From NCBI RefSeq assembly GCF_000337035.1, contig NZ_AOJL01000026.1, positions 62,001 to 126,000 on the forward strand: a stretch of 64,000 nucleotides of DNA, written 5' to 3'. Below are positions 1 to 14,114 of this stretch, piece by piece. This stretch comes from Halorubrum coriense DSM 10284. Its GTDB lineage: Archaea > Halobacteriota > Halobacteria > Halobacteriales > Haloferacaceae. Each line of letters starts with the position of its first letter. The stretch's first letter is position 1. The position numbers and the translations under genes are program-made. The notes beneath the pieces were generated by a model. The model did not search any database and was not told the origin of the DNA. It saw only the letters and a list, made by a program, of their open reading frames with translations.

Positions 1-1004
1 GTATCAAACAGATGCTCCACAACGGCAGGAAGAACCGGCGGCTGATCGTTGTTCTGAAGCTCTTGAACGTGTTTTACGAGCATCTGTGTTGCCGGAAAAG
101 AGAACACGACCCGTCGAGCGACATACGCCCAGTCTGATGCTAACTGGGTTAGTCTCGTCCGCTCCCTCTTCCATGACTTGAACTCTTCTAAAACAGAGTT
201 CAATGACTGCTCGTGTTTTTGTAACCCGAATCGAACCACTTCCTCACCCAAAGGAGATAGGACATCGGAGCCATCTGGTTGTTTCTCTATCAACCCGAGG
301 AATGCAGCACCGTCCCTGGCACTTCTGAAATCCCTCACTACGTACTCTTCGAGAACATTCTCAGTCGGCTCCGGATGATAGACACAGAATGGATATCCGA
401 GATAGTTTTTCGGACGGTTGAGATGAAACGACTGGTCAGCAACACGCTGCGGGCCGGCTTGAAAACGTATCGTCGATGCCTCTCGACCGACCTGTGTGCC
501 AACTACTCGCGGTTTCTCAAGCACATCTACCGACTGATCTTCCGTTACTCCGAGAACACCGATATTTAACTCTCGACCAAGTGCTCGAGTTTCCGACGAG
601 ATAGAACTTCGGGGAGCGGCTAAAAACCCGAGATTCGCTTCTTGTAGCCGGTCATGAGCTTGAACAATTCCCGTCTCCGTGTCGACCTGTCCGGTCGATC
701 CATGTCCCTTCGCTTCAACGACGACCAGAGGCGGCGAATCTAGATCTCCATGGTGACCACGAAACGAGTCACTCGCAATCGAACCGGCACCAACAAGATC
801 CGGATATCCTGAGCCTACACGCACATGATTAAATGGTGCTAACGTTTCAGTTACCTCCTGTGAGATTGGGACACCATTCAACCACTGGTCGGTAGAGAAT
901 TGAGTGTCGACGACTGCGTATCCTGAATCCTGTCTTGGTCTTGAAAACAACTGCTCTTTTGTCGTTGCTAGCACTTCTGGTTCAGTCATTGACAGTGCTT
1001 CCAT
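1..1004 (-). CDS. PD-(D/E)XK nuclease-like protein, C-terminus beyond window
   Basis: The reverse strand is open without a stop from an ATG at 1004 (alternative ATG at 989) to the window edge, giving about 334 residues. Residues 62-100 fit a restriction-endonuclease fold core: YPD at 67-69, then a hydrophobic strand ending in E97-A98-K99, followed by Q115 in a helix. That is the PD-(D/E)XK pattern. The rest (about 130-334) is not recognised. Codon use is AT-richer than the chromosomal core, as elsewhere in this island. The neighbour is a winged-helix regulator on the same strand. Nuclease activity is inferred from the motif only; a defence role is inferred from the surroundings. Confidence 0.7.
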   Translation of the reverse strand, partial: MEALSMTEPEVLATTKEQLFSRPRQDSGYAVVDTQFSTDQWLNGVPISQEVTETLAPFNHVRVGSGYPDLVGAGSIASDSFRGHHGDLDSPPLVVVEAKGHGSTGQVDTETGIVQAHDRLQEANLGFLAAPRSSISSETRALGRELNIGVLGVTEDQSVDVLEKPRVVGTQVGREASTIRFQAGPQRVADQSFHLNRPKNYLGYPFCVYHPEPTENVLEEYVVRDFRSARDGAAFLGLIEKQPDGSDVLSPLGEEVVRFGLQKHEQSLNSVLEEFKSWKRERTRLTQLASDWAYVARRVVFSFPATQMLVKHVQELQNNDQPPVLPAVVEHLFD

Positions 1005-1143
1005 ACACAAGCAGAACTGTTCCTACATGAAATAGGTCCGTAATGGTTCACATCCGTATAAACAGTAACACGGATCGATTTGTGAATGTTCGAGCACAGA
1101 GGTAGCCACTCCACGAAGAGAGCAAGCGAGTTTGAGAGGAGAC

Positions 1144-1356
1144 CTAATCCGATCTGGGGTCTTCAATGAGCTGCCAGAGTGCCGTCGGTTCGTGAACATA
1201 TTCAATAAACTCCGCAGCATGAAGTCTATCTAGCCTTTTTGTAACGGTCGGCCTCGATAAATCTGTGAAATCAACAAGTGCACCTGTTGTGAGATTGCCT
1301 TTGGATACAAACTCATCAATTACTTTCTCAGTATTCTCGTCGATTCTCAGGGGCAT
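1144..1356 (-). CDS. small winged-helix DNA-binding protein
   Basis: The 70-residue product has one winged helix-turn-helix: IDENTEKVIDEF, then GNLTTGALVDFTDLSRPTV and KRLDRLHAAEFIEYV. Small haloarchaeal regulators of this type commonly start a few residues before the ID-NTEK segment, so I chose the ATG at 1356. An in-frame ATG pair at 1398 would add 14 residues. The gene diverges from the RAMP operon, and one TATA-like tract around 1438-1446 could serve both directions, so it is a candidate regulator of that operon. That link is inference from position. Confidence 0.65.
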   Translation of the reverse strand: MPLRIDENTEKVIDEFVSKGNLTTGALVDFTDLSRPTVTKRLDRLHAAEFIEYVHEPTALWQLIEDPRSD

Positions 1357-1437
1357 ACTTACGTTATGTCTTGTCTGGTTCCTATTATCTCTCATCATAC
1401 ATATATGTAAATACTTACCTCCTTTACTATCCGTTAA

Positions 1438-1446
1438 GTATAAATG
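1438..1446 (+). promoter_or_regulatory. TATA element of the RAMP operon, possibly bidirectional
   Basis: The sequence TATAAAT at 1439-1445 is followed by about 110 nt before the first ATG (1557). A start about 26 nt downstream would give a leader from roughly 1467. Read on the other strand the tract is TTTATACTT, suitably placed for the divergent winged-helix gene. No experimental start site is visible. Confidence 0.45.
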
Positions 1447-1466
1447 AGCAAAGATAGTAGAAGAGG

Positions 1467-1556
1467 TTGAACACTCGGTCCCAATGGGGCAGTCGGCTAG
1501 AAAGCCCGCGTGTTGGCGCACGCGGACCGGGTTCCCACCCTAGAAAGTAAGAACCC
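1467..1556 (+). promoter_or_regulatory. structured 5' leader or small RNA upstream of RAMP operon
   Basis: Four hairpins are packed into about 80 nt. They are CCC-AAT-GGG at 1480-1488; GGCT-AGAA-AGCC at 1495-1506; a perfect 7-bp stem CCGCGTG/CACGCGG at 1506-1512 and 1519-1525 (loop TTGGCG); and GGGTTC at 1529-1534 paired with GAACCC at 1551-1556, ending one base before the ATG. The second and third share base 1506, so they may compete. The last could sequester the start region. A small RNA used by the system is an alternative reading. Confidence 0.45.
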
Positions 1557-2147
1557 ATGACAAAGAAGAGCTTCAGCGGCCAAGAGAACGTCGATCAGTT
1601 AGTTGAAGAAATAAGTCAAGTAGAATTTTATGCGCTCGGGGAAGGGCCGGCGGCGTGTCAGGTCTGCGACCGCAAGCTCCGGGAAGGCGACGAGCTGACC
1701 GCGTATGCCTTCCGGGCGGCTGGCAACCCCAGTTTTGAAATCGGATACGTGATGTGCGGGGCGGACGAGCACGCGCATCCGACGGAGTTCATGCGTGGCG
1801 TGGACGAACTCATCATCACGGGCCGAATCGGCCTGTGTACCGACGTGGCGACCCAATCATCGTGGCTGGTGGTTATCGCACCGGAACCAATTGTGGCGAG
1901 CCGACCCAAATCAAGCGATGCCCACACGATCGGTGAGGTGCCGACGCGCGACCTCGACCCCCTTCGCCAGGACATCCCTGAGGACGGTCCGACACTCACG
2001 CTTGAAAAAGCCGACGAGAGGTGGTCGGAACAGGTTGAGTGGACGAGTGAACACACGGCCGATTACTCCCAAGTGGACACGACACACCAGTGCGACCACG
2101 ACGAGGAGGACTATCGATACGCGACCAACCAGGGGGATGACGAGTAA
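1557..2147 (+). CDS. conserved haloarchaeal protein with CxxC motif, first gene of RAMP operon
   Basis: 196 residues. The N-terminal half has a zinc-binding look: CQVC at 37-40, then REGDELTAYAFR, a further Cys in YVMCG and His residues in DEHAHP. The C-terminal third is acidic and low in complexity. I do not recognise a catalytic domain. The stop codon TAA overlaps the ATG of the Cas7-like gene (TAATG), so the two are translationally coupled. Proteins of this type occur in many haloarchaeal accessory regions; a role as adaptor in the RAMP complex is only suggested by gene order. Confidence 0.75.
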   Translation: MTKKSFSGQENVDQLVEEISQVEFYALGEGPAACQVCDRKLREGDELTAYAFRAAGNPSFEIGYVMCGADEHAHPTEFMRGVDELIITGRIGLCTDVATQSSWLVVIAPEPIVASRPKSSDAHTIGEVPTRDLDPLRQDIPEDGPTLTLEKADERWSEQVEWTSEHTADYSQVDTTHQCDHDEEDYRYATNQGDDE

Positions 2148-3064
2148 TGCCGCCGACGTTCGACACGGCGCACCTCGATCACGAGATGTCACTCCCAGAC
2201 GATATCGAGGCGCTCACACTGCCGGACCTGTACGTGGGCCTCGAAATCCCACTGCTCGCACCAGGTGATGGGATCGTCACTGATCGCCAGCACGCCTCTG
2301 CGGATCGGTACGAGGCGGACGACCCACAGAACCAAATCGGCGGGATGGTGTCGCCGTTCCCACTGTCGGGCTGGCTCCGACACGGCTGTGAGCGCGTGAT
2401 ACAGGTAGCGGGCGGGACGGCGTGTCACCCGGGCGAAGCGAACGCGGACTACATGCTCGATGACGTGTACGAGCGCGACCTCGACGCCGGGTACCACGAG
2501 AAAGGCTCGTGTGTCGATGGGGACGCCGGCTGCGTCCTGTACGACCTGTTCGGCGGGTTCAACGACCGGGCGGGACGCCTCGTCCGCCGCCCGATTCGCT
2601 TCTCGCCGATCCGGCGGCAGGTCGACGTCCTCCAAGGAGAGGCGGAAGCGCACTACCGCCAACTGAACACCCAGGTGCGCTCACGCAACAGCGAGGACGA
2701 CGGGCAACCGCTGCGGATGGCGTCCCGAGACGTCGTCGGCAACCTCGTGGGGACGTGGAAACTGTCGCTACGAGAGCTGAAACCGGAGTACGTCGGCCTC
2801 CTCGTCGAGGCCGTCGACTACTTGGACGCCCATAGCGAGGAGTTCGAACTCCAACTGGGCGGCGCGCGGAATTTCGGGGCGGGCATGGTCGATGCGCGCG
2901 TCATCAACCCGCTCTACACCGATGCGGAAATCAAGCGGGTGTACAATCGCGCGCAGGACGCCACCTCAGGGATGACGTACAAAGACGACCTGTGGCGAGA
3001 GTCGGTGCGCCAGCAGTTCGTGAAGCCGCTCCAAGAGCGCGTGAACGGCATGGGGGAGCCCTGA
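2147..3064 (+). CDS. Cas7-like RAMP protein (HRAMP system)
   Basis: 305 residues with the Cas7 (Csm3/Csf2-type) signature order. A first RRM strand YVGLEIPLLAPGDG is at 29-42; PFPLSGWLRHGCE at 70-82 corresponds to the GSSLKG-like helix; GCVLYDLFGG at 128-137 matches the CPxCxLFG segment; a basic strand RLVRRPIRFSPIRR follows; and a glycine-rich loop LQLGGARNFGAGMV is at 235-248. Cas7 proteins form the RNA-binding backbone of class 1 effectors. The fold is well supported by these motifs, and the link to the predicted HRAMP system rests on family knowledge. RNA binding is inferred. It is coupled to both neighbours by 1-nt stop/start overlaps. Confidence 0.85.
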   Translation: MPPTFDTAHLDHEMSLPDDIEALTLPDLYVGLEIPLLAPGDGIVTDRQHASADRYEADDPQNQIGGMVSPFPLSGWLRHGCERVIQVAGGTACHPGEANADYMLDDVYERDLDAGYHEKGSCVDGDAGCVLYDLFGGFNDRAGRLVRRPIRFSPIRRQVDVLQGEAEAHYRQLNTQVRSRNSEDDGQPLRMASRDVVGNLVGTWKLSLRELKPEYVGLLVEAVDYLDAHSEEFELQLGGARNFGAGMVDARVINPLYTDAEIKRVYNRAQDATSGMTYKDDLWRESVRQQFVKPLQERVNGMGEP

Positions 3065-3891
3065 TGCCGATGGCGGAGGCGAGTGACTCAACGAGTGTCG
3101 ATCTCCGGAGAGCGTACCGACACGACGTCCACAAACTGCGCGGCCGCCAGCACGGATCAGGACGTGACGCGTTGTTCGGCGTCCCGGTCAACGACTCAGT
3201 CCCGCTGCAGGCAGATCGAGATGCGGCGTTGCTGAGCCGGCCAGTTGGGGAACCCGAACAGACGGTAGCGAATCACGCGACGCCGGCGCGGCTGTCGTTG
3301 CTCACCGGATCAGTACGTGCCGACGACGCGGTCCCCGTCCAAGATGCCGCGATCAAGCCGTTGATCGATGGAAGCCCCGACGAGCTCCACGCAGCGTGGC
3401 TGACGAGTGAGACGGCGGCACTGGTGAACGAGTCAGTGTATTGCCCGTACTCATCGCTCAAGTACCACGTGTTGCTGGTGGCCGCGTTGCTCGATGCGTA
3501 CCAAGCCGGCCAATCGTTCGGCGAGTTGTATCTGACTGTCGAGCCAGCAGCGGACGCACCACCGCGGAACGCAGATCAAAAAGCGAGACAGCAGGCGGCG
3601 CTCGACGCGGATGCCGTAGACCCACATCGAACCATCCTGTGGACGGAGGCGATGACGATGCGACTGACGGCGTCACCAGACGGACCAGCAGCGTGGCTTG
3701 GCCCGGCCCCGGCTGAATCGTTTGCTGACGTGTGGAATCGGGTGTCTGGGTCGCCCTTGGGCCGTGAAGCGCAGTGGTGGCGTCACGTCGACGCACAACT
3801 CCGCCGAATCAGATCGTGGTCGACAGCGCTACAGTACATCGAGGATGCTGTCGCGGAGGATACGCGCGGCACTGTGGGGGTGAGCGAGTGA
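3064..3891 (+). CDS. uncharacterised protein of the HRAMP operon
   Basis: 275 residues from the ATG at 3064, which overlaps the preceding TGA; an earlier in-frame start at 2992 lies inside the upstream gene. No family is recognised. The middle section (ETAALVNESVYCPYSSLKYH and the helix after it) looks folded; the C-terminal third contains paired tryptophans and an Arg-rich helix. A conserved uncharacterised protein is part of the published HRAMP description, and this gene or the next is the candidate. By position it could replace the large subunit of class 1 effectors, but no motif shows this. Confidence 0.8.
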   Translation: MPMAEASDSTSVDLRRAYRHDVHKLRGRQHGSGRDALFGVPVNDSVPLQADRDAALLSRPVGEPEQTVANHATPARLSLLTGSVRADDAVPVQDAAIKPLIDGSPDELHAAWLTSETAALVNESVYCPYSSLKYHVLLVAALLDAYQAGQSFGELYLTVEPAADAPPRNADQKARQQAALDADAVDPHRTILWTEAMTMRLTASPDGPAAWLGPAPAESFADVWNRVSGSPLGREAQWWRHVDAQLRRIRSWSTALQYIEDAVAEDTRGTVGVSE

Positions 3892-4337
3892 CCCGCCGAC
3901 ACGTTCGTGACTGGCTGGCTACCGACCCCGGCCTACCGATATGGTCAGGCGGTGAGTCCGTTGGGCAGGCTGTTGGTCCGCTTGTGTCGCCAGTAGGTGG
4001 GCGTCGACGGTCGCTGCCCCGCCCGGAAGCGCACGCGCCACTGTCGACTCGACGAAGTCCGCCGACAGGTGGGGGCGCAGATCACCGCACACTCGGGCGA
4101 AGCCAAGCGAACCCACACCCCAGCGCCCCAGCGAAATGGTCGGGCCGTGAATCCGCGGGACGGGCTGCGAGCCAGCATGCCGGACCGGTGCGTGCGTGCC
4201 GATGGCGGGCGACGCCACTGTACGCTTCAACCGATCGTGGGTGCCTGCTGTGGGCGGGTCGATCCACCACAGCCAACGGTCAAGTGGTACGTGAACGTGT
4301 TACAATCTCCACTCGAAGAGAGGGGGGTGTAGCATGA
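3888..4337 (+). CDS. basic repeat-containing protein in HRAMP operon
   Basis: The reading frame starts at a GTG overlapping the previous stop (GTGA) and ends in a TGA overlapping the next ATG, giving 149 residues. The product is highly basic (about 23 Arg/Lys against 9 Asp/Glu by eye), which is odd for a halophile. WSGGESVGQA at 19-28 and WSGRESAGRA at 84-93 form an in-frame 65-residue repeat, with a weaker WAGRS at 122. Mismatches between the two copies fall mainly at third codon positions in this frame, supporting it over the competing +1 frame (3997-4332). A basic RNA-binding subunit is possible; a degenerate gene is the alternative. Confidence 0.5.
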   Translation: MTRRHVRDWLATDPGLPIWSGGESVGQAVGPLVSPVGGRRRSLPRPEAHAPLSTRRSPPTGGGADHRTLGRSQANPHPSAPAKWSGRESAGRAASQHAGPVRACRWRATPLYASTDRGCLLWAGRSTTANGQVVRERVTISTRREGGVA

Positions 4338-5278
4338 CCACGATCCAACAGGTGGTGTTCGAATTGTCGACCCCGTATGCGGGGCGACCATATCACGTGT
4401 CGGGCCACGCGTTGTTTCAGGCGATTGCGGGGGACGTCGACGACCGGACGCGACGCGACCTCCAAGTGAGCCACGGCATCTTCGCGCCGTCAGAGTACGG
4501 CTCCTACCCAGAATCACACTCACAGAAAGGGTATGCCGGCAAACTCGGCGGCTCACTCCCACCGGTTGAGTCGTACGAGGACCTGTTCCTGTTTCGGGAT
4601 GCGGCCCAGCGATGGCTACAGCCCTCTCGGCCGCGCGACGCGCAGAACACGATGGATCGCCAATCACACGGGGGACGGCTGACGGTCGCGCCGGAGTCAT
4701 TCTTTGGCGTCCCCGAACACCAGCGGAATTCAAAACGCCGAGTGAAATGGTACGTCCACGCGTATCTCCACAGCGAGCGCGAGGGCATACTCCCGCTTGA
4801 TGCGACCGTGCTCGATGGGATTCAGCTGGGCGGTGCTCGGAACTACGGGTTTGGGGAAGTCTCGCTCGTGGACTCCCAGGTTGTTGAGCTCGACGCCCTC
4901 TCCTTTGACGGGTTACGCGGGCACGACGCGTACACCATCGAGCTGGTGACACCGTACGTCCTCCAAAGTGAGGCACCGGACGCGGACGCCCAATCGGTAC
5001 CCTGGTGGTGGGATACGTCGGTTACGGGCATGGGAAGCGATGCGCCGACGCGCGACCGCCGATTGCGTCGCCGCGAGGAGCGACTCGCTGGGGAGATCAC
5101 ATATGAACTGGCGACGGTCGATCACGGACAGATGGTCGGCTACGGCGGGAGCGACCCAGTAGAGACGGCAAAGAATGGCGTGTTGCGGCTGGGAACACAC
5201 GCGCGATTCGGCTTCGGTGAGCTGCGAGTGCGGCCGGCCGAACACGATCGTGTGCCAGCGCGGGAGGGGGTGGCCTGA
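4334..5278 (+). CDS. Cas5-like double-RRM RAMP protein (HRAMP system)
   Basis: 314 residues containing two RAMP/RRM units. Each opens with a hydrophobic strand (QQVVFELSTPYAG at 5-17; YTIELVTPYVLQ at 200-211). Each closes with a glycine-rich loop (QLGGARNYGFGE at 164-175; RLGTHARFGFGE at 285-296). Two RRMs with both loops retained resemble Cas5-group proteins of type III/IV (Csm4, Csf3), which hold the 5' end of a guide RNA. No catalytic His or Tyr typical of Cas6 is evident, though Cas6 cannot be excluded. It overlaps both neighbours (ATGA; TGATG). Confidence 0.82.
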   Translation: MTTIQQVVFELSTPYAGRPYHVSGHALFQAIAGDVDDRTRRDLQVSHGIFAPSEYGSYPESHSQKGYAGKLGGSLPPVESYEDLFLFRDAAQRWLQPSRPRDAQNTMDRQSHGGRLTVAPESFFGVPEHQRNSKRRVKWYVHAYLHSEREGILPLDATVLDGIQLGGARNYGFGEVSLVDSQVVELDALSFDGLRGHDAYTIELVTPYVLQSEAPDADAQSVPWWWDTSVTGMGSDAPTRDRRLRRREERLAGEITYELATVDHGQMVGYGGSDPVETAKNGVLRLGTHARFGFGELRVRPAEHDRVPAREGVA

Positions 5279-5940
5279 TGCTCGAGCAGGTGGCGTTCGA
5301 CATTGAGACGACCGGCTTCGACGTCGACGATGAGCTAACGGTCGTCGGGTTTGCGATGCCGATGGGCGTGCGGGTGTTCGTACAGACTGACGGGCGAGAG
5401 GCAGCCAGTATTGAATCCGCTGTCGAGGCGGGTATCTCGGAGACTCTTGTCCGTATCTCGACGCACGCGTCTGAGCATGCGCTGCTAGTCGCGGTGTCCG
5501 AGTTCGTTGCGGAGCGGATCCATGATGGAGAGCAACTGCTCATCGCGTACAACGGCGAGCGATGGAGTGGAGGGTTCGATCTGCCGTTCCTCAGGACGCG
5601 GTACGCGCAGCGTGAGCTGGCGTGGCCGTTCGTGGACGTGCCGTACGCGGACGTGATGCCGCTCGTCACAGATCGGTTCAACACGACGGTTGACGGGACC
5701 GAGCACAGTGGACTCGTGACGGCATACGAGGTGTTGTGTGATGGAACTGACAGCGAGGTGGACCCGTTCGACGACAGCGCAGAAGCGGTGACGGCGTTCG
5801 AGGACGGACAGTTCGCGCCGCTCGTGTTGCATAATGTTGCGGACGTGCTTCGCACACGGGCGCTTGGCCGAGTTGCTGAGCGCTACTGCTCGAAAGCGGA
5901 CTTCAACGTCAAATCACTCTCGCCGACACGGGACGCGTGA
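5278..5940 (+). CDS. RNase H-fold 3'-5' exonuclease-like protein of HRAMP operon
   Basis: 220 residues with the acidic motifs of the RNase_H_2/YprB-type DEDD superfamily. They are D8-I-E10 in FDIETTGF, YN at 91-92 with F100-D101 (GGFDLPFLRTR), D125, and LHNVADVL with D189. The catalytic set is complete, so activity on DNA or RNA 3' ends is plausible. The ATG at 5278 overlaps the stop of the Cas5-like gene, which makes co-translation with the RAMP proteins likely. Class 1 effectors normally cut with Cas3, Cas10 or Cas7, so a dedicated exonuclease subunit would be a distinct solution. Confidence 0.8.
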   Translation: MLEQVAFDIETTGFDVDDELTVVGFAMPMGVRVFVQTDGREAASIESAVEAGISETLVRISTHASEHALLVAVSEFVAERIHDGEQLLIAYNGERWSGGFDLPFLRTRYAQRELAWPFVDVPYADVMPLVTDRFNTTVDGTEHSGLVTAYEVLCDGTDSEVDPFDDSAEAVTAFEDGQFAPLVLHNVADVLRTRALGRVAERYCSKADFNVKSLSPTRDA

Positions 5941-5974
5941 GTCTGGCTCGGTGAGCGGTCGCGGCGCGTGTAGT

Positions 5975-5987
5975 CCCCACAGCGGGG
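5975..5987 (+). terminator. small GC hairpin after the HRAMP operon
   Basis: CCCC at 5975-5978 pairs with GGGG at 5984-5987 around an ACAGC loop, 35 nt after the exonuclease stop and before the HNH gene. No oligo-T follows, so this may be a processing or attenuation structure rather than a terminator. Confidence 0.25.
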
Positions 5988-6070
5988 GTGCCGATTTGAA
6001 GTGATACACCACAGGGAGGAGCGATGCTGCCGGTCGCAGTGCGTGCGACAGCGAACACAGAGCGATATCC

Positions 6071-7168
6071 ATGAGCAATTCAGACGACGAGAAGACGGTT
6101 GACGGAACAGATACTGAGAAGACCGCGGGCGAGGAGGGTGCCGACGGCGACGCCCCGTCGGACCAGTTAGAGACGGCGTCGATGAACCCAAGCGCGGAAC
6201 GAAACGAGACGGTTGATCCGTCGACCCAAAAGAAGGTACTTGAACGCGATCGGTATCGCTGTCGGGCCTGTAACGCGAAAGCGCCAGCCGCTGGCGGCCT
6301 GGCAGACCTCGAGGTCCACCACGCCGATCGGGACCCGGACGATGTTGGTGAACACGACCTAGCGAACCTCCTCACGTTGTGCCGGAGTTGCCACTCGTGG
6401 CATCACAAGCGGGGCAAGTCAAGCGATGTACCCATCCGGCTGACGGAGGCCGATGACAAAGAGTTGCTGTCCCACGATTACGAGATTCTGCGGATCCTCA
6501 ATGACAACGGCCCGCTCCGCACGGGGGCGATTGCCGAGCGATTAACAGCCGAGATGTCACTCATGGCGGTTCGAGAGCGGTTGTGGCATTTAGGCGGCCT
6601 CGATAACAAGGTACCTGAGCGAACAGAGCCGCTCGTGACCAAAGACATCGCTTCGCAGGAGTGGGGACTCCTCGATGATATCGTGACGGGTGCTCGTGGC
6701 CACATTCCTGATGATCACAAATTGCTTGTGCAACGGACAGAAGACGAGCTCGTACGGCGAGCGCTTGACCGTGGGTGTGACCGACAGACGGTGATGGAGG
6801 TGTTCGACGTCTCGCGGCGGGGGACGATCTACAAAGAGAAGCGTTCGAAAATGTATGATTTCCCGATTGACGCGTTCAGTCGCGGCGGGCGGCCACGGGT
6901 CTCCAAGGAGGCGTCAAGTAAGGGGGACTCGTCGACAGCGGCGAGAGGGCCGGAGGAAGCAGAGGCGATACGGAATGCGGCGGTGCGGGCGAGCGAGGTG
7001 ACTGCTGATGGGGGCGAGGACCCAGCCGCGGAGATCGTGTCAGATACAGGTGAGCCAGTTGGCGAGGTGGATCAAGAGGATGCGGTTGACGAGGCGACTG
7101 ATGCGGAGAGCGTCCAACAGCTGTTAGAGGAGGCGCTCGACGCGTTGCGGGACGATACCGAGGAGTAG
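6071..7168 (+). CDS. HNH endonuclease with winged-helix domain
   Basis: 365 residues. An acidic disordered N-terminus (1-50) precedes an HNH domain at about 52-113: CxxC at 64-67, the VHH motif (H83-H84), N99, CxxC at 104-107 and final His residues 108-112, so the zinc and catalytic positions look intact. A winged-helix segment follows (LSHDYEILRILNDNGPLRTG, about 143-185), then another possible HTH (RQTVMEVFDVSRRGTIYKEK) and an acidic C-terminal tail. It lies 130 nt after the HRAMP operon on the same strand. HRAMP loci are reported to carry varied nucleases, and this is the best candidate DNA-cutting partner; separate regulation is possible. Confidence 0.82.
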   Translation: MSNSDDEKTVDGTDTEKTAGEEGADGDAPSDQLETASMNPSAERNETVDPSTQKKVLERDRYRCRACNAKAPAAGGLADLEVHHADRDPDDVGEHDLANLLTLCRSCHSWHHKRGKSSDVPIRLTEADDKELLSHDYEILRILNDNGPLRTGAIAERLTAEMSLMAVRERLWHLGGLDNKVPERTEPLVTKDIASQEWGLLDDIVTGARGHIPDDHKLLVQRTEDELVRRALDRGCDRQTVMEVFDVSRRGTIYKEKRSKMYDFPIDAFSRGGRPRVSKEASSKGDSSTAARGPEEAEAIRNAAVRASEVTADGGEDPAAEIVSDTGEPVGEVDQEDAVDEATDAESVQQLLEEALDALRDDTEE

Positions 7169-7192
7169 TCCGCGTTCAGGCGGATTTTTTTG
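7169..7192 (+). terminator. oligo-T terminator after HNH gene
   Basis: A run of seven T at 7185-7191 lies 17 nt past the HNH stop. Oligo-T tracts without a strong hairpin are the usual archaeal termination signal. Confidence 0.55.
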
Positions 7193-7379
7193 TGGTGTGG
7201 TCGTGATAACGCGGGGGGACTTGTGTGTGCCGTGTTTGAGGGATACCGTACTGTTGGAACCAATTGAGGCAGACAGGGACCGGTTACTGAATAAGCTGTG
7301 TCGCTACGACTACATTAGAAGATTCTACAAACAGCTCTCAATGACCGGATGTTTCAGGCGAGGGTATATCTGAGGGAGA

Positions 7380-7395
7380 GGATTTCAACAGAGCC
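7380..7395. repeat. 16-bp transposon-end-like sequence, copy 1
   Basis: GGATTTCAACAGAGCC is the exact reverse complement of positions 19151-19166, and near-copies occur at 19493-19508 and 22358-22373. It lies in the gene-free gap between the HNH gene and the convergent nuclease gene. No transposase is present nearby, so this would be a remnant end. Confidence 0.5.
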
Positions 7396-7404
7396 AGAGA
7401 TCAG

Positions 7405-8580
7405 CTATTGCGTCTGGTGGTCGGCCACGATATCAGTGAGAGATGGCTCCACGATCTGGCGGAACGAATGGAGCGTTTGGATGGCATTCCGAATTGAGTC
7501 ATCTGGCTGCTCCGTGTCTAATGGGACAGACTTGGCGAAGTATGCGTAACTGCTATCGACGATCTCCCAGCCATTATTCTCTAGACGGTCCAATTCATTT
7601 TCGTTGAGTTTGGTGTGGAGTTGCTGTCGAATCTGCTGTTTGTCTCCACGTTCAATGTCAAGTCGGAGGCGGATGTCTGGGTGGTCACGGTTGAGATGGA
7701 CGTGGAGTTCATATTCGATTGTCACGCTGCCTGCAACGTTACCCCAGTCTTTTTTAGCGAAGTTGATATACGTATTAGGCCGGTTGTTGACGGTCCATTC
7801 CTCATGATCACCATCTAATTCACCGAAGAACGCTGTTTCGAGGCGATTGAACACCTTATTTTTATCATCTTCGTATGCTTGGACTAGGCGGTCGATAGTG
7901 TCTGCGTATTCAGTGTAGAGTTTCGTCTCGTCGGAGATGGTGGTGAAGTCGTCCATGTTGAGTGTCTGTTGGATTGTATCGAGATAATCAGCGAACTGTG
8001 CGTAGCTTTTCGATGGGTACTGCCCATGGCTCGTTCGTAATACGTCCTCAAAGTAGGGAACGACAGACTCCCAAGAGATATCGACGAACGTCTCTGATTT
8101 TGATGAACGCGCATTCCCGGGAGCGAGATACACATACTCACTCACACCATCGTGTTGGCTGACATCGAGATCGCCAAGCTCAGTTGCTTGGGCATATCGT
8201 CTCGTTTGGACCCCTGTTTCTGCTGCATCGACTTTCAGTTCGATAACGACATACCACGCATCCTCACACCACAACAGGATGTCAAAGACGCCGTCTTCTG
8301 TCGGGACCTGGGAGTGGACCTCAATTTGCCCGAGATCAGATCGCGTCGACGAGAGTGACGTACTGTCATGGGCTGTAATTGCGTTCAAGAAGGCCTGAAG
8401 TACATCTGATCCAAACCCGTGAGGATTACTCGAATCTAGAAAGTAAACCAGCAAGTCCTCCCAGTACCGTTCGCGTTTAGCTTCTCCGAGAATATCTAAT
8501 GTCGTTGTCGGAGGACGATCAACACCAGCTAACCGCTCCTCGATATCTTGGAGGTGAGTCTCTAGCGTTGTTTCTGACAC
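7405..8580 (-). CDS. PD-(D/E)XK nuclease-family protein
   Basis: 391 residues starting at a GTG. The N-terminal third is a PD-(D/E)XK domain of the PDDEXK_4 type: E41 in RYWEDLLVYFLD, D100 in VFDILLW, E114-L-K116 in VVIELKVDA, and Q125 in the following helix. The C-terminal half (about 200-391) is mixed alpha/beta and unrecognised. It has its own TATA-like tracts just upstream, so it may be transcribed apart from the helicase gene 60 nt away. Its G+C is well below the core chromosome. A defence or repair role with the helicase is inferred. Confidence 0.8.
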   Translation of the reverse strand: MSETTLETHLQDIEERLAGVDRPPTTTLDILGEAKRERYWEDLLVYFLDSSNPHGFGSDVLQAFLNAITAHDSTSLSSTRSDLGQIEVHSQVPTEDGVFDILLWCEDAWYVVIELKVDAAETGVQTRRYAQATELGDLDVSQHDGVSEYVYLAPGNARSSKSETFVDISWESVVPYFEDVLRTSHGQYPSKSYAQFADYLDTIQQTLNMDDFTTISDETKLYTEYADTIDRLVQAYEDDKNKVFNRLETAFFGELDGDHEEWTVNNRPNTYINFAKKDWGNVAGSVTIEYELHVHLNRDHPDIRLRLDIERGDKQQIRQQLHTKLNENELDRLENNGWEIVDSSYAYFAKSVPLDTEQPDDSIRNAIQTLHSFRQIVEPSLTDIVADHQTQ

Positions 8581-8640
8581 AGATATATAATATTACAGAT
8601 CACATAAAGTACCAGTGGACTGGGCCGGCGAAGATTCTCT

Positions 8641-11600
8641 TCACTCCTCCTCAGTTGCTTTCAGCTCGGTAGGGGTATCACCTGAAGAATCGTCCTGAGA
8701 CAATTGATAGTGAATTGTTTCGACATCCACTCGCGCATCCTCGGGCTCAATCTCAGTTAGTTCACTGAATCCGTTGATCACTACCTGCGGATCACCTTTG
8801 TACTCGTTAACGCTGATATTCTCGAACCGATACCAAGTATCGCTCTCTACTGTGGGTGGGTCAGCACTTGCCCAGGAGACGACTTTGACTGAATCAGTGT
8901 GGTCCTCAAGTACACCGCCTTGATGTTTCTTCGCGTGTGTGTCGTCCCAGAGATGGGCGACTCGGGCTTGGAGCGTGTTTTGATTCCCCGTGGGATCAAG
9001 CGACACAATACGGTCGGCATTTGTCGCTGTATCGACGTACTGGTCGATCTCGTCGATAAAGCGTGATTGGTCCTCTTGATTCGACTTCGTGATGACATCA
9101 AGCGTCCGTGCGCTCCGGGTGATGGCAACGTAAAAGAGGCGACGCTCTTCGGAAAGCGTATTCATATCGACCTCTCGAACGGGTTCAAGTAACTCTGAGT
9201 TCCGATCAGTGGCAGGAAAGCCCATGCCATCTTCAGAGGCGTGGGTCACGATGACGTGATCCGCCTCACGGCCTTTCGCTTGGTGGACAGAACAAACAGT
9301 GACACCGTCCTGCTGGTCGCTACCGCTTGTATATGGAATTGACCGGTCATGAAGTCGCTTGCGGACAGCATCAAGGTGGCTAACGGCGTCGTCATACCGG
9401 CAGAGCACCATAATCTCGTTTGGATCACAACCACTGTCTATGTAATCGGCGACGAGGTGGGCCACGAGCTCGGCAGTGTACTTTACGTAGTCATACTCGC
9501 GGTAGCCACCCAGAAGGTGTTTGACGACGGCGGCAGGGGCGTCTGAAGCCGCAGTCGTCTGCTTGACAAGTTGATTCTCGTTTTGTTCGATCAGCTCAAC
9601 ACTCGCTTTGACGAGTTGTGAGGGGGATCGGTAATTTGTATCGAGTGTAGTAGTGGCAGTGTACTCGAACCGCTCTTCAAAATTAATGAAGAGGTCGACA
9701 ACAGCACCTTGGAACGAGTAGATACTCTGCCAGTCATCACCGACCGCAAATAGCTGCGCATTATCTGGCCCAGATAGCTGTGCGATAAGCTGTAATTGGT
9801 CTTGGCCGATGTCTTGAAACTCGTCGACAAGAACGTGTTCATAGCCAGGAGTAGCGGGGTCTGCTCCGGTTGAGAGTAGTGATGCTGCTTCGTAGATCAT
9901 ATCGGTAAAATCGATATTCCCTGATTCTCTCAACCGAGTTTCGTACGCGTTCAACAAGAGCCCCCCACACATGCCGAAATAATACTGGGAGGATTGATCT
10001 ATCGAGAGGCGGGACGGGATTTCCGAAGGCTCAATTTCGAACGTTCGAGCAAGTTCAATAAATCGGGTGAACATCTGCTGAATTGGGATATTGCGGTTGT
10101 GAATCTCGTATGTCTCATTCACGAGTTCTTCATGAGACCGTCGATCGAGTGAGACATGATGATGTGTGAGTCGGTGCGTGAGAGCTTGGCGTAACCGGCC
10201 CGTATCAAATTCAAACTGATACGTTTCGAGGAGAACGGCGTCACGGTCATCGAACACCTCTCGAGCCCAGTGGATTTTCTCGATGTATTCTTCGCTTGAT
10301 TGCGTAAACCAATCTGCGACCTGGCCATCTTCGTCAATACCGTAATGTTCGATCCAAATCTCGGCTTCTGGGAGGTAGAAATCAGGCCGATATGCGCTGA
10401 TTTCCGTAGGCCTATCAGCGTCGGAGTCTGTAGATTCCGAATCAGTCCCTGTCTGGTCTCCCTGTGAATGTGACTGATCTAGGTCTGCCCGATATTCGTA
10501 CTTGTAGTCGATTTGATGGACATATAGAAAGTCGGCAATGAGCTTCTCAGCGCGCGATTTGACCTTCTCACCACGTAATGTTTCATACTCCTCGCGTCGG
10601 AGGTGTTCAACAAACTCCTCTTTTGTCTCAAAATCTGTCTCGCTAACGGTGGGTAACTCACTTTGGAGAAGAAAATTCGAGAAGTGCTCATAGAACGTCT
10701 CCGGGACGAGTTCTGTACGTTGCTCAAGAACATCATCGACGAGATGCTCCAGGTCATCACCATCAAACACGTCTGGTCTTCCACCAGTTGTATTCGTAAT
10801 AACTGAGTAACCGAAGGAGTGTAGCGTTGAGGCCTTGATCCCCGTAATATCGAACTCTTCACGTAGTCGCCGTTGCAATTCTTCGGCAGCCTCGTTGAGA
10901 AACGTCACGACGAGAATATCTGCGGGGTCTACATCCTGATATTTGACAAGGTACGCAACACGAGTCGTCAGTACAAGCGTTTTGCCGGTCCCAGCGCCAG
11001 CAATAACACGGTTGTATGAATCATTTCGAATAACTGCTTCCCGCTGATCCCGATCAAGTGTCGTCTCATCCTGTCCAACAGCATCAAAAAATGATTGCCT
11101 CCGTCTGAGTTCACTCTCGACGAAGCGGTCGTTGTACCTGTCGCGGTTCGTGAGTAACTGACCAACTTCTGCAAGATTACGTTCAAATCCCCGGATCAGT
11201 GGGTGTGCGGTTGCGATCCCAGTGGTCTCTTCGACCGATGACCGAAGCGCTCCCAACTCCGCCTGTAGCGTGGCAGATCTTGACGTTAATGTCTCTTGAT
11301 CATGCCCGGTTAGGTATGACTCCGTGTCAAGATAGGGTTGCATACGATTGAGAAGGTTCAACAGACGGTCCTCAAACTGATCGCACATTTCGTGAAACCG
11401 CTTCTCACGGGCGCTCGTTACCACAGAGTCCCGTTTGTGAAGGTACACGGCAGAGCCGATAATAGGGATTCCAACAGCCAACGCGGCCCATCGGGTGGCA
11501 GACATGTCCCAGTGGGTTTCGTCACTGATTGCCTGTGCGTCTGCAACCACAGTTTTCCAGATCAGAACCGCCGTCAGAACAATCAGCGATCCACTCCAAA

Positions 11601-11760
11601 TCCAAGATGGTTCGTTGGCGAATGAGAATCCACTGATAAATACGCTAATCGCAATAACAGATGGGAGGGTAGCGACAAACAGAATTGCTCCGATTCTCCG
11701 AATGGGGCGTATGTTTCTGATAGGAAGAGAGTCATACGATAGAGTAGAATCAGTCATCAA
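8641..11760 (-). CDS. membrane-anchored helicase IV/UvrD-family protein
   Basis: 1039 residues. Three hydrophobic segments (about 24-45, 53-70, 90-107) precede an SF1A helicase. Walker A is AGAGTGKT, the UvrD Walker B is VLVDEFQDI, motif III is VGDDWQSIYSFQG, and the C-terminal motifs include VCSVHQAKGREAD and LFYVAITRS. An insertion with YRPDFYLPEAEIWIEHYGI is characteristic of helicase IV (HelD) and resembles a nuclease-fold module. A membrane anchor is unusual for this family. The ATG pair at 11760 follows a TATAAA-type element (11790-11795 on the other strand). It probably acts with the adjacent nuclease. Confidence 0.85.
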   Translation of the reverse strand: MMTDSTLSYDSLPIRNIRPIRRIGAILFVATLPSVIAISVFISGFSFANEPSWIWSGSLIVLTAVLIWKTVVADAQAISDETHWDMSATRWAALAVGIPIIGSAVYLHKRDSVVTSAREKRFHEMCDQFEDRLLNLLNRMQPYLDTESYLTGHDQETLTSRSATLQAELGALRSSVEETTGIATAHPLIRGFERNLAEVGQLLTNRDRYNDRFVESELRRRQSFFDAVGQDETTLDRDQREAVIRNDSYNRVIAGAGTGKTLVLTTRVAYLVKYQDVDPADILVVTFLNEAAEELQRRLREEFDITGIKASTLHSFGYSVITNTTGGRPDVFDGDDLEHLVDDVLEQRTELVPETFYEHFSNFLLQSELPTVSETDFETKEEFVEHLRREEYETLRGEKVKSRAEKLIADFLYVHQIDYKYEYRADLDQSHSQGDQTGTDSESTDSDADRPTEISAYRPDFYLPEAEIWIEHYGIDEDGQVADWFTQSSEEYIEKIHWAREVFDDRDAVLLETYQFEFDTGRLRQALTHRLTHHHVSLDRRSHEELVNETYEIHNRNIPIQQMFTRFIELARTFEIEPSEIPSRLSIDQSSQYYFGMCGGLLLNAYETRLRESGNIDFTDMIYEAASLLSTGADPATPGYEHVLVDEFQDIGQDQLQLIAQLSGPDNAQLFAVGDDWQSIYSFQGAVVDLFINFEERFEYTATTTLDTNYRSPSQLVKASVELIEQNENQLVKQTTAASDAPAAVVKHLLGGYREYDYVKYTAELVAHLVADYIDSGCDPNEIMVLCRYDDAVSHLDAVRKRLHDRSIPYTSGSDQQDGVTVCSVHQAKGREADHVIVTHASEDGMGFPATDRNSELLEPVREVDMNTLSEERRLFYVAITRSARTLDVITKSNQEDQSRFIDEIDQYVDTATNADRIVSLDPTGNQNTLQARVAHLWDDTHAKKHQGGVLEDHTDSVKVVSWASADPPTVESDTWYRFENISVNEYKGDPQVVINGFSELTEIEPEDARVDVETIHYQLSQDDSSGDTPTELKATEEE

Positions 11761-12118
11761 TCATGAATTGTTGATGATGATCACATGACTATAAACTGTT
11801 TGCTTCCAGATCATTATCTCCTCAAAGGTGGTTCGAGCTCTTTGAGACAGATTTCACAACCGATCAATCCTTTTCCTCAACCGCTAAGGTTTCGCGTTCT
11901 TTGGGTAAACCAGCTTAGGATATGATCTCGAAAAGGGTAGTGAGGATGCTCCGATCTGCCGAGTGCCCCCACAGCAACTCACGACGCCGAGAATGTCTTT
12001 CCGCCGCCGACTGCACCGAATCTCGACGCTCAGCATATACGGCTGCGAGCCTAACTGATGGTAGATGCGGTGGGATCCACGACCCGCGCTCCGGCGACTT
12101 TCGAGGCTGGTGACTTCA
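11761..12118. other. gene-free interval with helicase promoter
   Basis: The first 40 bases hold the promoter of the helicase gene (TATA-type element at 11790-11795 read on the minus strand). No convincing coding frame, tRNA or repeat was seen in the remainder; the short open frames there have poor codon structure. Confidence 0.5.
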
Positions 12119-12742
12119 ATGACGCTCACACAAACACAGATACGCGAGTACGACCGCCGTGCGATGGATAGTGCGGAGACTGCCACGGCGACGTTCGGAA
12201 TCGGCTGTTTCTGGGGGCCTGATGCCCAGTTCGGTGCGATGGACGGCGTCGTTCGCACCCGGGTCGGCTACGCCGGCGGTACAAAGCACGATCCGACGTA
12301 TCACGCGTTAGGCGACCACACGGAAGTGGTCCAAGTTGAGTTCGATCCCGACACGGTAGCGTATCGAGACCTTCTGAATCGGGTGTTCGAGTCGCACAAC
12401 CCACAGCACCAGAGCAGAAAAACACAGTATCAGAATGTCGTGTTTGCTGGGACGGAAGACCAACGAGCAGTCCTCGACGAATTTCTCGCTACGCGAGGGC
12501 TCACTGCCGATGGGATCGGAACACGCATCGAGCAGCTCTCACGCTTCTACCCCGCTGAGGAGTACCATCAGAAGTACAAACTCCGGTCCGTCTCCTCGCT
12601 CATGGACGCGTTTGAGGCGGCGGGATACGGCGACGATGAGTTGCGGGAATCGCCAATCGCTGCCAAGCTGAACGGGTACGCCGCCGGGCATGATGTTGGC
12701 ATTGACGAGGAACTCCAGGCACCCGATCGCGGGAGAGTATAG
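12119..12742 (+). CDS. msrA: peptide-methionine (S)-S-oxide reductase
   Basis: 207 residues from the ATG at 12119; a second in-frame ATG at 12164 would also give a complete enzyme. The catalytic GCFWG motif is present (FGIGCFWGPDAQFG), followed by VVRTRVGYAGG, the YHALGDHTEVVQVEFDP segment and the C-terminal FYPAEEYHQKY. MsrA reduces methionine-S-sulfoxide in damaged proteins, using a cytoplasmic reductant. It stands alone on the plus strand within the island, so oxidative-stress repair was probably brought in as cargo or lies between inserted segments. Confidence 0.92.
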   Translation: MTLTQTQIREYDRRAMDSAETATATFGIGCFWGPDAQFGAMDGVVRTRVGYAGGTKHDPTYHALGDHTEVVQVEFDPDTVAYRDLLNRVFESHNPQHQSRKTQYQNVVFAGTEDQRAVLDEFLATRGLTADGIGTRIEQLSRFYPAEEYHQKYKLRSVSSLMDAFEAAGYGDDELRESPIAAKLNGYAAGHDVGIDEELQAPDRGRV

Positions 12743-12971
12743 ACACCAGTAGTTTGGTGGCGACGGACAGCGTCGTCGACAGGGGCTAGTCAAGTGGATA
12801 ACGCGGATCTCCGACGGCGGCGGTTCCGACATGATTACCCTTACGCCGCTTGATTGAGACCCCCTCGCACCGTAGATACCACGTCCCGGAGTGAATCGGC
12901 AACCGCCACGGGAAGCCTCGCGGCTTCGATGGACCCGTAGGCTTTCACCTGTCACGCAGTAACGGACTAGT

Positions 12972-14114
12972 GTGTCCACCGACCAGTCCCATCAGTCTGT
13001 GTCCGGTCTCGATGTACTCATCTCCGGTGGATCGATGGGCGGGCTCTTCACCGGGATTTCTCTCGCACGATCGGGCCACAGTCCAACGATCTACGAGCGG
13101 TCGGCAGGGGCGCTCAAAAGCCGCGGCGGCGGGATCGTCGCCCAACAGAACATCCGTCGATTTCTCAGCGACCACGACATCGTTGACCCGGATGAGATCA
13201 CGACGCGGTCTCACGAGCGTCGGTTTCTCACGGAGGGCGGCGGCGTCGAACGCGCCGTGTCCGAAACGATGGTGTTCACGTCGTGGGACGCGCTCTATCG
13301 ACAGCTCCGCAACGCCTTCCCCGACGAGCAGTACCGAACTGGGACAACGGTCACAGGCGTGACGCCCGAGACGGCCACGGCCACGACCGATGACGGGACA
13401 GAACGGTCGGCGGACGTGGTTGTCGCCGCCGAGGGTGGTCAGTCCGCGACACGCGCACAACTACATCCCGACGTGGAACCGGAGTTCGCGTCCTACGTCG
13501 CATGGCGTGGCGTCGTCGACGAAGCGACCCTCCCAGCTGTATGTGTCGAGGCGTTCGACGAGATGTTCACGTTCTACCAGGGGGCCGATCAGCTCATTCT
13601 CGCGTACTTCATTCCGGGCCCGGACGGCGAGACTGAGCCGGGCTCGCGTCGGCTCAACTGGGTGTGGTACGATACCCTCGACGGACGGGACCGAGGTGCG
13701 ATATTCACAGACACGAGCGATACCGAACAACGGTTCTCCGTCTCACCGGGTCAGTTGCGCGAACCGGTTCGTCACCGACAGCGCGATCGCGCAGCGAAGC
13801 TCCCGCCCGTGTTCGAGACACTCGTTAGTGAGACACCAGACCTCTTCGTACAGGCGATTTACGACCTGACGGTCCCATCGATGGTCACAGGTCGAGTGTG
13901 TCTACTCGGAGATGGTGCGTTCGTTGCCCGCCCGCATACGGCAGCGGGGACCGCGAAGGCAGCTGGTGATGCAACCGCGCTCGCCGAAGCTCTTGCGAGT
14001 CACGGATCGATCAACGAGGCGCTCGCGGCATGGGATCAAGCACGCACTGAGTACGGTACCACACTCGTCGCCCGTGGGAAGCAGATGGGTGACGTGCGGC
14101 TGAATCTAGACTGA
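12972..14114 (+). CDS. FAD-dependent monooxygenase
   Basis: 380 residues from a GTG at 12972. The N-terminal Rossmann motif is a slightly altered GxGxxG (SGGSMGGLFTGISLARSG, about 18-35). The second FAD-binding element CLLGDGAFVARPHTAAGTAKA is near 310-330, with the family's GD dipeptide. Overall layout matches class A flavin monooxygenases such as dihydroxypyridine or salicylate hydroxylases. The substrate cannot be read from sequence. No pathway partners are adjacent. Confidence 0.82.
   Translation: MSTDQSHQSVSGLDVLISGGSMGGLFTGISLARSGHSPTIYERSAGALKSRGGGIVAQQNIRRFLSDHDIVDPDEITTRSHERRFLTEGGGVERAVSETMVFTSWDALYRQLRNAFPDEQYRTGTTVTGVTPETATATTDDGTERSADVVVAAEGGQSATRAQLHPDVEPEFASYVAWRGVVDEATLPAVCVEAFDEMFTFYQGADQLILAYFIPGPDGETEPGSRRLNWVWYDTLDGRDRGAIFTDTSDTEQRFSVSPGQLREPVRHRQRDRAAKLPPVFETLVSETPDLFVQAIYDLTVPSMVTGRVCLLGDGAFVARPHTAAGTAKAAGDATALAEALASHGSINEALAAWDQARTEYGTTLVARGKQMGDVRLNLD

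Follow-up and report, generated by a model that had tools for sequence, protein, structure and literature searches.

Haloarchaea are thought to use mainly leaderless mRNAs, and, according to a genome-wide study of their start sites, structured leaders are not a typical means of translational control in this group (PMC4983044). As of 2021, the fluoride (crcB) riboswitch of Thermococcus was the only natural archaeal riboswitch that had been experimentally determined (PMC8241225). In Haloferax volcanii, a synthetic riboswitch that acts by masking the start region is functional (PMC8241225), which makes the kind of mechanism proposed below plausible. The S15 r-leader of Halobacteria is a ribosomal protein leader that serves ribosomal genes (PMC7247131).

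The leader described here precedes the first gene of an HRAMP operon in Halorubrum coriense DSM 10284 and is best read as a copy of an RNA switch that had not been catalogued before and is present in about half of the haloarchaeal species searched. We put the probability that it is a cis-acting, riboswitch-like translational switch at about 0.72; such a switch probably exposes or hides the start codon of the following gene. The closest form appears to be that of translational riboswitches in which two states compete for one switching strand. As a candidate for this class, the element resembles them in its junction, in the reuse of the 3′ strand of P1 in a start-codon hairpin, and in having two exclusive states with diverse arms and a more constant junction. 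Unlike them, it has downstream genes without a common metabolic theme and reaches about 37 nt into the open reading frame (ORF). With the Thermococcus riboswitch it shares its place in an archaeal 5′ leader and a presumed effect on translation, whereas its architecture and gene context differ and it has no Rfam match at the seven loci searched. Like the S15 r-leader, it is a structured, covarying leader of Halobacteria whose likely partner is a trans factor, but it serves a dispersed multi-gene set rather than one operon and, here too, has no match in Rfam.

The window, meaning the whole stretch of DNA analyzed, is 64,000 nucleotides long (contig NZ_AOJL01000026.1, positions 62,001 to 126,000). 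Its operon fits the definition of HRAMP, with diverged Cas5 and Cas7 homologues, nucleases, no array, and a haloarchaeal host:

1557..2147, plus strand: first HRAMP gene (196 aa), the ORF behind the leader
2147..3064, plus strand: Cas7-like RAMP gene of HRAMP (Pfam RAMPs, weak, E 0.076)
4334..5278, plus strand: Cas5/Cmr3-like gene of HRAMP (PADLOC Cmr3, E 2.6e-5)
5278..5940, plus strand: RNase H-like/DEDDh exonuclease gene (Pfam RNase_H_2, E 1.5e-5; PADLOC DEDDh, E 8.6e-6)
6071..7168, plus strand: HNH nuclease gene (Pfam HNH, E 1.6e-6)

HRAMP is array-less according to the literature (PMC12669027, PMC8730458), and the same statement in the initial annotation agrees with what is seen here, as no CRISPR array was found near the operon within positions 1-14000 of the window. 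A profile of the Cas7-like protein found no relative in the PDB. Of the 391 genomes sampled from the class, 101 have a homologue of this protein, and homologues are also found at 22 loci in named genomes, which include Halorubrum, Halopenitus, Halosimplex, and Natronococcus.

Several other features of the operon and its surroundings can be recorded. The HNH protein (6071-7168) is weakly similar to the HNH region of IscB (NCBIfam E 3.8e-7, far below the cut-off) and also to DpdF and ZorE (PADLOC). Between operon genes three and four, about 440 nt (3891-4334) show no convincing ORF in the frame of the operon. At another locus, the first HRAMP gene is fused to an HNH nuclease with HTH domains (L186:1868-3184, 439 aa). 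The operon is adjoined on the minus strand by a PD-(D/E)XK nuclease (7405-8580, Pfam PDDEXK_4, E 2e-12) and by a 1039-aa protein (8641-11760) that reads as a UvrD-like helicase, a neighborhood that suggests a defense island.

Leader structure and two alternative pairings

The leader reads TTGAACACTCGGTCCCAATGGGGCAGTCGGCTAGAAAGCCCGCGTGTTGGCGCACGCGGACCGGGTTCCCACCCTAGAAAGTAAGAACCC, followed by the ATG at 1557, and the true extent of the element is about 1468 to about 1593. Its plan is a three-way junction of P1, P2, and P3, followed by a hairpin, P4, that runs up to the start codon. The parts are as follows:

1471..1476, plus strand: arm A, the 5′ arm (A:B pairing above shuffles, 0/5000; covariation)
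1477..1481, plus strand: P1 core, 5′ strand (partner 1524-1528; 5/5 pairs changed on both sides)
1487..1507, plus strand: P2 hairpin (1487-1490 with 1504-1507)
1508..1523, plus strand: P3 hairpin (1508-1513 with 1518-1523; alternative perfect 7-bp reading 1506-1512/1519-1525)
1524..1528, plus strand: P1 core, 3′ strand (covariation, 89 distinct leaders)
1529..1534, plus strand: arm B, the strand in common (partner is A, 1471-1476, or A′, 1551-1556)
1529..1556, plus strand: P4 hairpin, closing against the start codon (6 bp; 5/6 pairs changed on both sides, family-wide)
1551..1556, plus strand: arm A′, GAACCC directly 5′ of the ATG (B:A′ pairing above shuffles, 0/5000)

The stems that the initial annotation had described are real and lie where it placed them, including the perfect 7-bp hairpin, CCGCGTG (1506-1512) with CACGCGG (1519-1525). 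One detail needs correction: the last stem, GGGTTC (1529-1534) with GAACCC (1551-1556), had been said to stop one base short of the ATG, and there is in fact no gap. In P2, the unpaired 3′ side is purine-rich (RRAA) and conserved, and the whole hairpin is missing from a few members. P3 has 99.3% of its cells paired and covariation in four of five pairs (89 distinct leaders), and a tally of its loop gives the consensus YURGRA. Arm A of the window forms four pairs with B (1473-1476 with 1529-1532). P4 carries mismatches in some members, with column 79 unpaired in 20 of 89.

Folded alone, the leader of the window is slightly better than chance (minimum free energy -33.2 kcal/mol, z -1.5, with 12 of 200 shuffles equally stable). 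A modest result of this kind is weak evidence and proves little by itself; the strong evidence comes from comparison. The covariation at other HRAMP loci that the initial annotation had named as a check is present, since an alignment of 21 HRAMP leaders has 34 cells changed on both sides of a pair compared to 9.4 in shuffles (0/500) and 94.4% of cells paired compared to 22-52% with slid partners. These conserved, covarying stems support one of the roles it had suggested, that of a control RNA of the operon.

Arm B is complementary both to arm A, as an extension of P1, and to arm A′, as P4. Among 89 distinct leaders, the P4 structure shows 200 double-sided changes versus 61 and a covariation score of 0.394 versus 0.165 (0/500 shuffles), and the A:B structure scores 0.429 versus 0.219 (0/500). 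The two pairings also fit best within one and the same sequence. For 41 non-redundant members, A and B form 5.17 of 6 pairs within a sequence compared to 4.86 +/- 0.07 between sequences, and B and A′ form 5.71 of 6 compared to 5.33 +/- 0.06, with 0/5000 shuffles in each case. As an example of change in all three strands, column 78 of B has U for G in ten sequences, and the matching A is seen in the A and A′ columns in ten. Exchange of A or A′ between members destabilizes the member's own state by a mean of 3.1 or 2.8 kcal/mol, respectively. Among subfamilies, the arms are wholly different and the plan is kept (A/B/A′: GAACYC/GGGUUC/GAACCC, CAGACC/GGUCUG/CAGACC, GAAGC/GCUUC/GAAGC, GAGGAG/CUUCUC/GAGAAG); at the extreme, L152:8113-8202 has one hexamer, CAGACC, as both arm A and arm A′. 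Since A:B and B:A′ both covary, the leader has the look of a translation switch with two states: a conserved secondary structure with compensatory changes, capable of two mutually exclusive folds, one of which would occlude the start region.

The energies of the two states can be estimated at 37 °C, in a calculation that ignores molar salt. Over 131 members, the A:B state is favored (ddG +3.1 +/- 3.4 kcal/mol), the leader of the window favors the P4 state by 2.6 kcal/mol (-34.4 versus -31.8), and the balance differs widely across members. In many of them, the two states are far apart, as might be expected of a constitutive leader that does not switch, in which the junction would be a 5′-end protection or a standby site and P4 would merely tune initiation. 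However, compensatory change keeps A:B as well as B:A′, including the joint changes in three strands, and one fixed structure needs neither, which makes a constitutive leader unlikely.

Distribution among haloarchaea

First-gene leaders of other HRAMP operons have the same plan in a changed sequence (the junction of P1, P2, and P3, then P4 up to the ATG). A covariance model, R1, was built from the set of 21 HRAMP leaders and finds the element at nearly all HRAMP loci examined that have a close Cas7-like protein. About 20 of the loci detected are outside the training set (E 1e-4 to 1e-15, where the E-values of R1 and of a further model, R2, come from a short calibration and are rough). R1 also matches several loci of a more distant HRAMP group; other leaders of that group are barely seen by it and keep the plan, such as those of Halobacterium plasmids (GAAGC...GCUUC...GAAGC-ATG) and Natronococcus (GAGGAG...CUUCUC...GAGAAG).

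The element is by no means confined to HRAMP. Matches to R1 are found in 212 of 391 genomes of the haloarchaeal class (E <= 0.01) and matches to R2 in 198 of 391 (E <= 0.001). A single genome has up to about 10 copies. By a hand comparison of two lists, with one Cas7-like query standing for the presence of HRAMP, the element is in about 81 of the 101 genomes with an HRAMP cas7 and in about 131 genomes without a detectable homologue of it. All inspected copies except one are directly before an ATG, an adjacency that is partly selected for since both models contain the ATG. The ORFs behind the copies include those for SWIM zinc-finger proteins, small CxxC proteins, and the HNH fusion of the first HRAMP gene, as well as very short ones; no copy among those inspected is before a ribosomal protein gene. 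Some copies are plasmid-borne, and the virus HJTV-4 (OP374082) has one (L173:3973-4054) before a small zinc-ribbon-like ORF (ORF35), which may be viral use of a host-type switch or the reverse.

The genome of the window has a second clear copy (G000:C32:70586-70668, L216), before a 148-aa SWIM-like zinc protein, and a likely third (G000:C26:174900-175002, L217), which is weak (E 0.28) and precedes a PadR-like protein of 122 aa. A plain DNA search of this genome had given short chance matches only, and the further copies were found later by the structure models. In three loci (L151, L152, L153), three SWIM-type or related genes form a tandem array with one element per gene, each with its own matching arms. 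Outside Halobacteria, no match was found in other classes among 148 genomes sampled sparsely from the phylum. Rfam 15, searched at permissive thresholds with positions 1000-7400 of the window, has nothing on the leader and one chance-level match elsewhere (MIR167 at 4275, far below gathering), and six other member loci have no match up to E 0.5; at these seven loci, the element corresponds to no known Rfam family. An earlier description of such an element was not found in the open literature.

This distribution bears on the other role considered in the initial annotation, that of a guide RNA. The leader could be processed to a small RNA and loaded into the HRAMP Cas5/Cas7-like complex as a guide or scaffold, and HRAMP does lack an array and has the RNA at essentially every group-1 operon examined. 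As a hairpin RNA beside a nuclease-bearing RAMP operon, it also resembles CRISPR crRNA, tracrRNA, or OMEGA guide RNAs. Unlike these, it has no repeat-spacer unit, and inspection of close relatives revealed no variable guide or hypervariable, spacer-like segment. Nor does it occur only or mainly with HRAMP proteins: in about 131 of the 212 genomes that carry the RNA, no HRAMP cas7 homologue is detectable, and copies also lie before ORFs for SWIM zinc-finger and other proteins. Moreover, it abuts the ATG and extends into the ORF. A guide is thus a very unlikely function for it.

RAMP proteins bind RNA hairpins. This, and the position of the leader before a RAMP operon, gives some appeal to autoregulation, the idea that the RAMP proteins of HRAMP bind their own leader and repress translation, as had also been proposed at the outset. 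As a general mechanism it does not hold, since the same architecture is found before non-RAMP genes in genomes without detectable HRAMP, and the general trigger must be something other than RAMP proteins. We regard it as highly improbable, and what survives of it is that bound leader RNA may have a role specific to HRAMP. Finally, the copies might act in trans, each serving as a decoy for the others or regulating them by antisense, or giving rise to a small RNA that acts elsewhere, and the number of copies per genome and the very short ORFs behind some of them would fit this, but the arms differ among copies of one genome, each fitting its own partners (L151, L152), and the coupling to the ATG is tight, so there is little to recommend it; the occurrence of copies before unrelated ORFs argues for a role in cis.

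Coding motif and divergent regulator gene

The element does not end at the start codon. Its last part is inside the first gene:

1581..1593 (+25 to +37), plus strand: intragenic part, CAAGAGAACGTCG (codon-9 third-base bias; motif in weak matches)

Conservation past the ATG peaks at +26 to +30 and at +36/+37 in a set of 83 non-redundant members (A29 in 79/83, C36 in 73/83, G37 in 80/83). Codon 9 ends in A or T in 82 of the 83, compared to a background of 33% in the same genes. When this codon is for glutamine, it is CAA 38 times and never CAG, against a background of 100 CAA to 163 CAG. The peptides encoded at the motif vary (for example, SGQES, AGLQDSG, and PRHKRLA), so the constraint there acts on the RNA. 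Because the coding motif is outside the covariance models, it also serves as an independent check on their matches, and 19 of 21 weak matches (E 5e-7 to 0.07) show all four motif positions.

A pairing partner for the motif was sought in the P2 loop, the P3 loop, and the segment between B and A′, with no signal beyond swapped partners; in the best case, P2 with +4 to +23, 20 of 300 shuffles were equally high. A fifth hairpin, P5, within the ORF (+20 to +38) is clear in a few members and weak family-wide (z 1.8-2.4), and it is not claimed. One subfamily (L228, L230, L232, L233, L234) has several copies in one genome before very short ORFs (consensus PRHKRLAR), and in these copies the coding motif is a strong hairpin, CGAGAC-AUAAAC-GUCUCG, with compensatory variants. 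They are possibly stand-alone or decoy RNAs.

Upstream of the leader are a promoter and, in the opposite direction, a small regulator gene:

about 1434-1444, plus strand: TATA-like promoter box (sequence; position of the box in other copies)
1144..1398, minus strand: small winged-helix (MarR/HTH_24-like) regulator gene, 84 aa (Pfam MarR_2, E 2.5e-6; HTH_24, E 2.7e-6)

In most copies, the TATA-like box starts 30-37 nt 5′ of arm A. Since the mode is 32-35 nt, the transcript should start within a few bases of arm A, and in the window the inferred start is at about 1463-1470, a few bases before 1471. Of 131 copies, 115 have a small regulator gene in divergent orientation no more than 250 nt away (a winged-helix gene in 96 and a member of a second small family in 19), as do all 56 group-1 HRAMP loci tested. 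Short inverted repeats flank the TATA box (1398-1471 in the window, and upstream of L014-L083). They differ between loci (for example, CCATTAC/GTAATGG and CCATTATGAG/CTCATAATGG) and are presumably the operators of the divergent winged-helix proteins; the repeats vary across loci and the RNA plan is constant.

Proposed switch and its meaning

The two-state translational switch can be pictured as follows. The mRNA would start just 5′ of arm A, and the three-way junction of P1, P2, and P3 would fold during transcription. In the presumed ON state, arm A extends P1 by pairing with arm B, and A′ and the AUG would be left open. In the presumed OFF state, B pairs with A′ to form P4, which ends at the AUG, and initiation would be hindered. 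Arm A′ was considered as a Shine-Dalgarno sequence and rejected, as GAACCC, CAGACC, and GAAGC do not qualify; the block of initiation by P4 is therefore an assumption. The balance between ON and OFF would be shifted by a trans-acting signal, which would recognize the junction together with the loop of P3, the purine-rich 3′ side of P2, and the coding motif (+26 to +37). A second layer of control, at the level of transcription, probably comes from the winged-helix protein of the divergent gene, in which case the expression of HRAMP would be doubly locked.

One could go further and consider the element a haloarchaea-specific, new class of natural RNA switch, in which one dedicated signal (a metabolite, an ion, or a protein, perhaps linked to infection or mobile elements) controls dispersed accessory genes, including those of HRAMP, plasmids, and viruses, together with a divergent winged-helix regulator. 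This wider reading is tentative, a possibility to which we give somewhat less than even odds.

A covarying, switch-like leader in about half of 391 sampled species would overturn the view that structured leaders are not typical of haloarchaea, and archaea would gain a widespread natural RNA switch, compared to the one that had been experimentally determined as of 2021. An array-less CRISPR derivative would share a regulon with other genes about which little is known, and these can now be listed. For controlling genes in halophiles, the leader would also be a natural building block.
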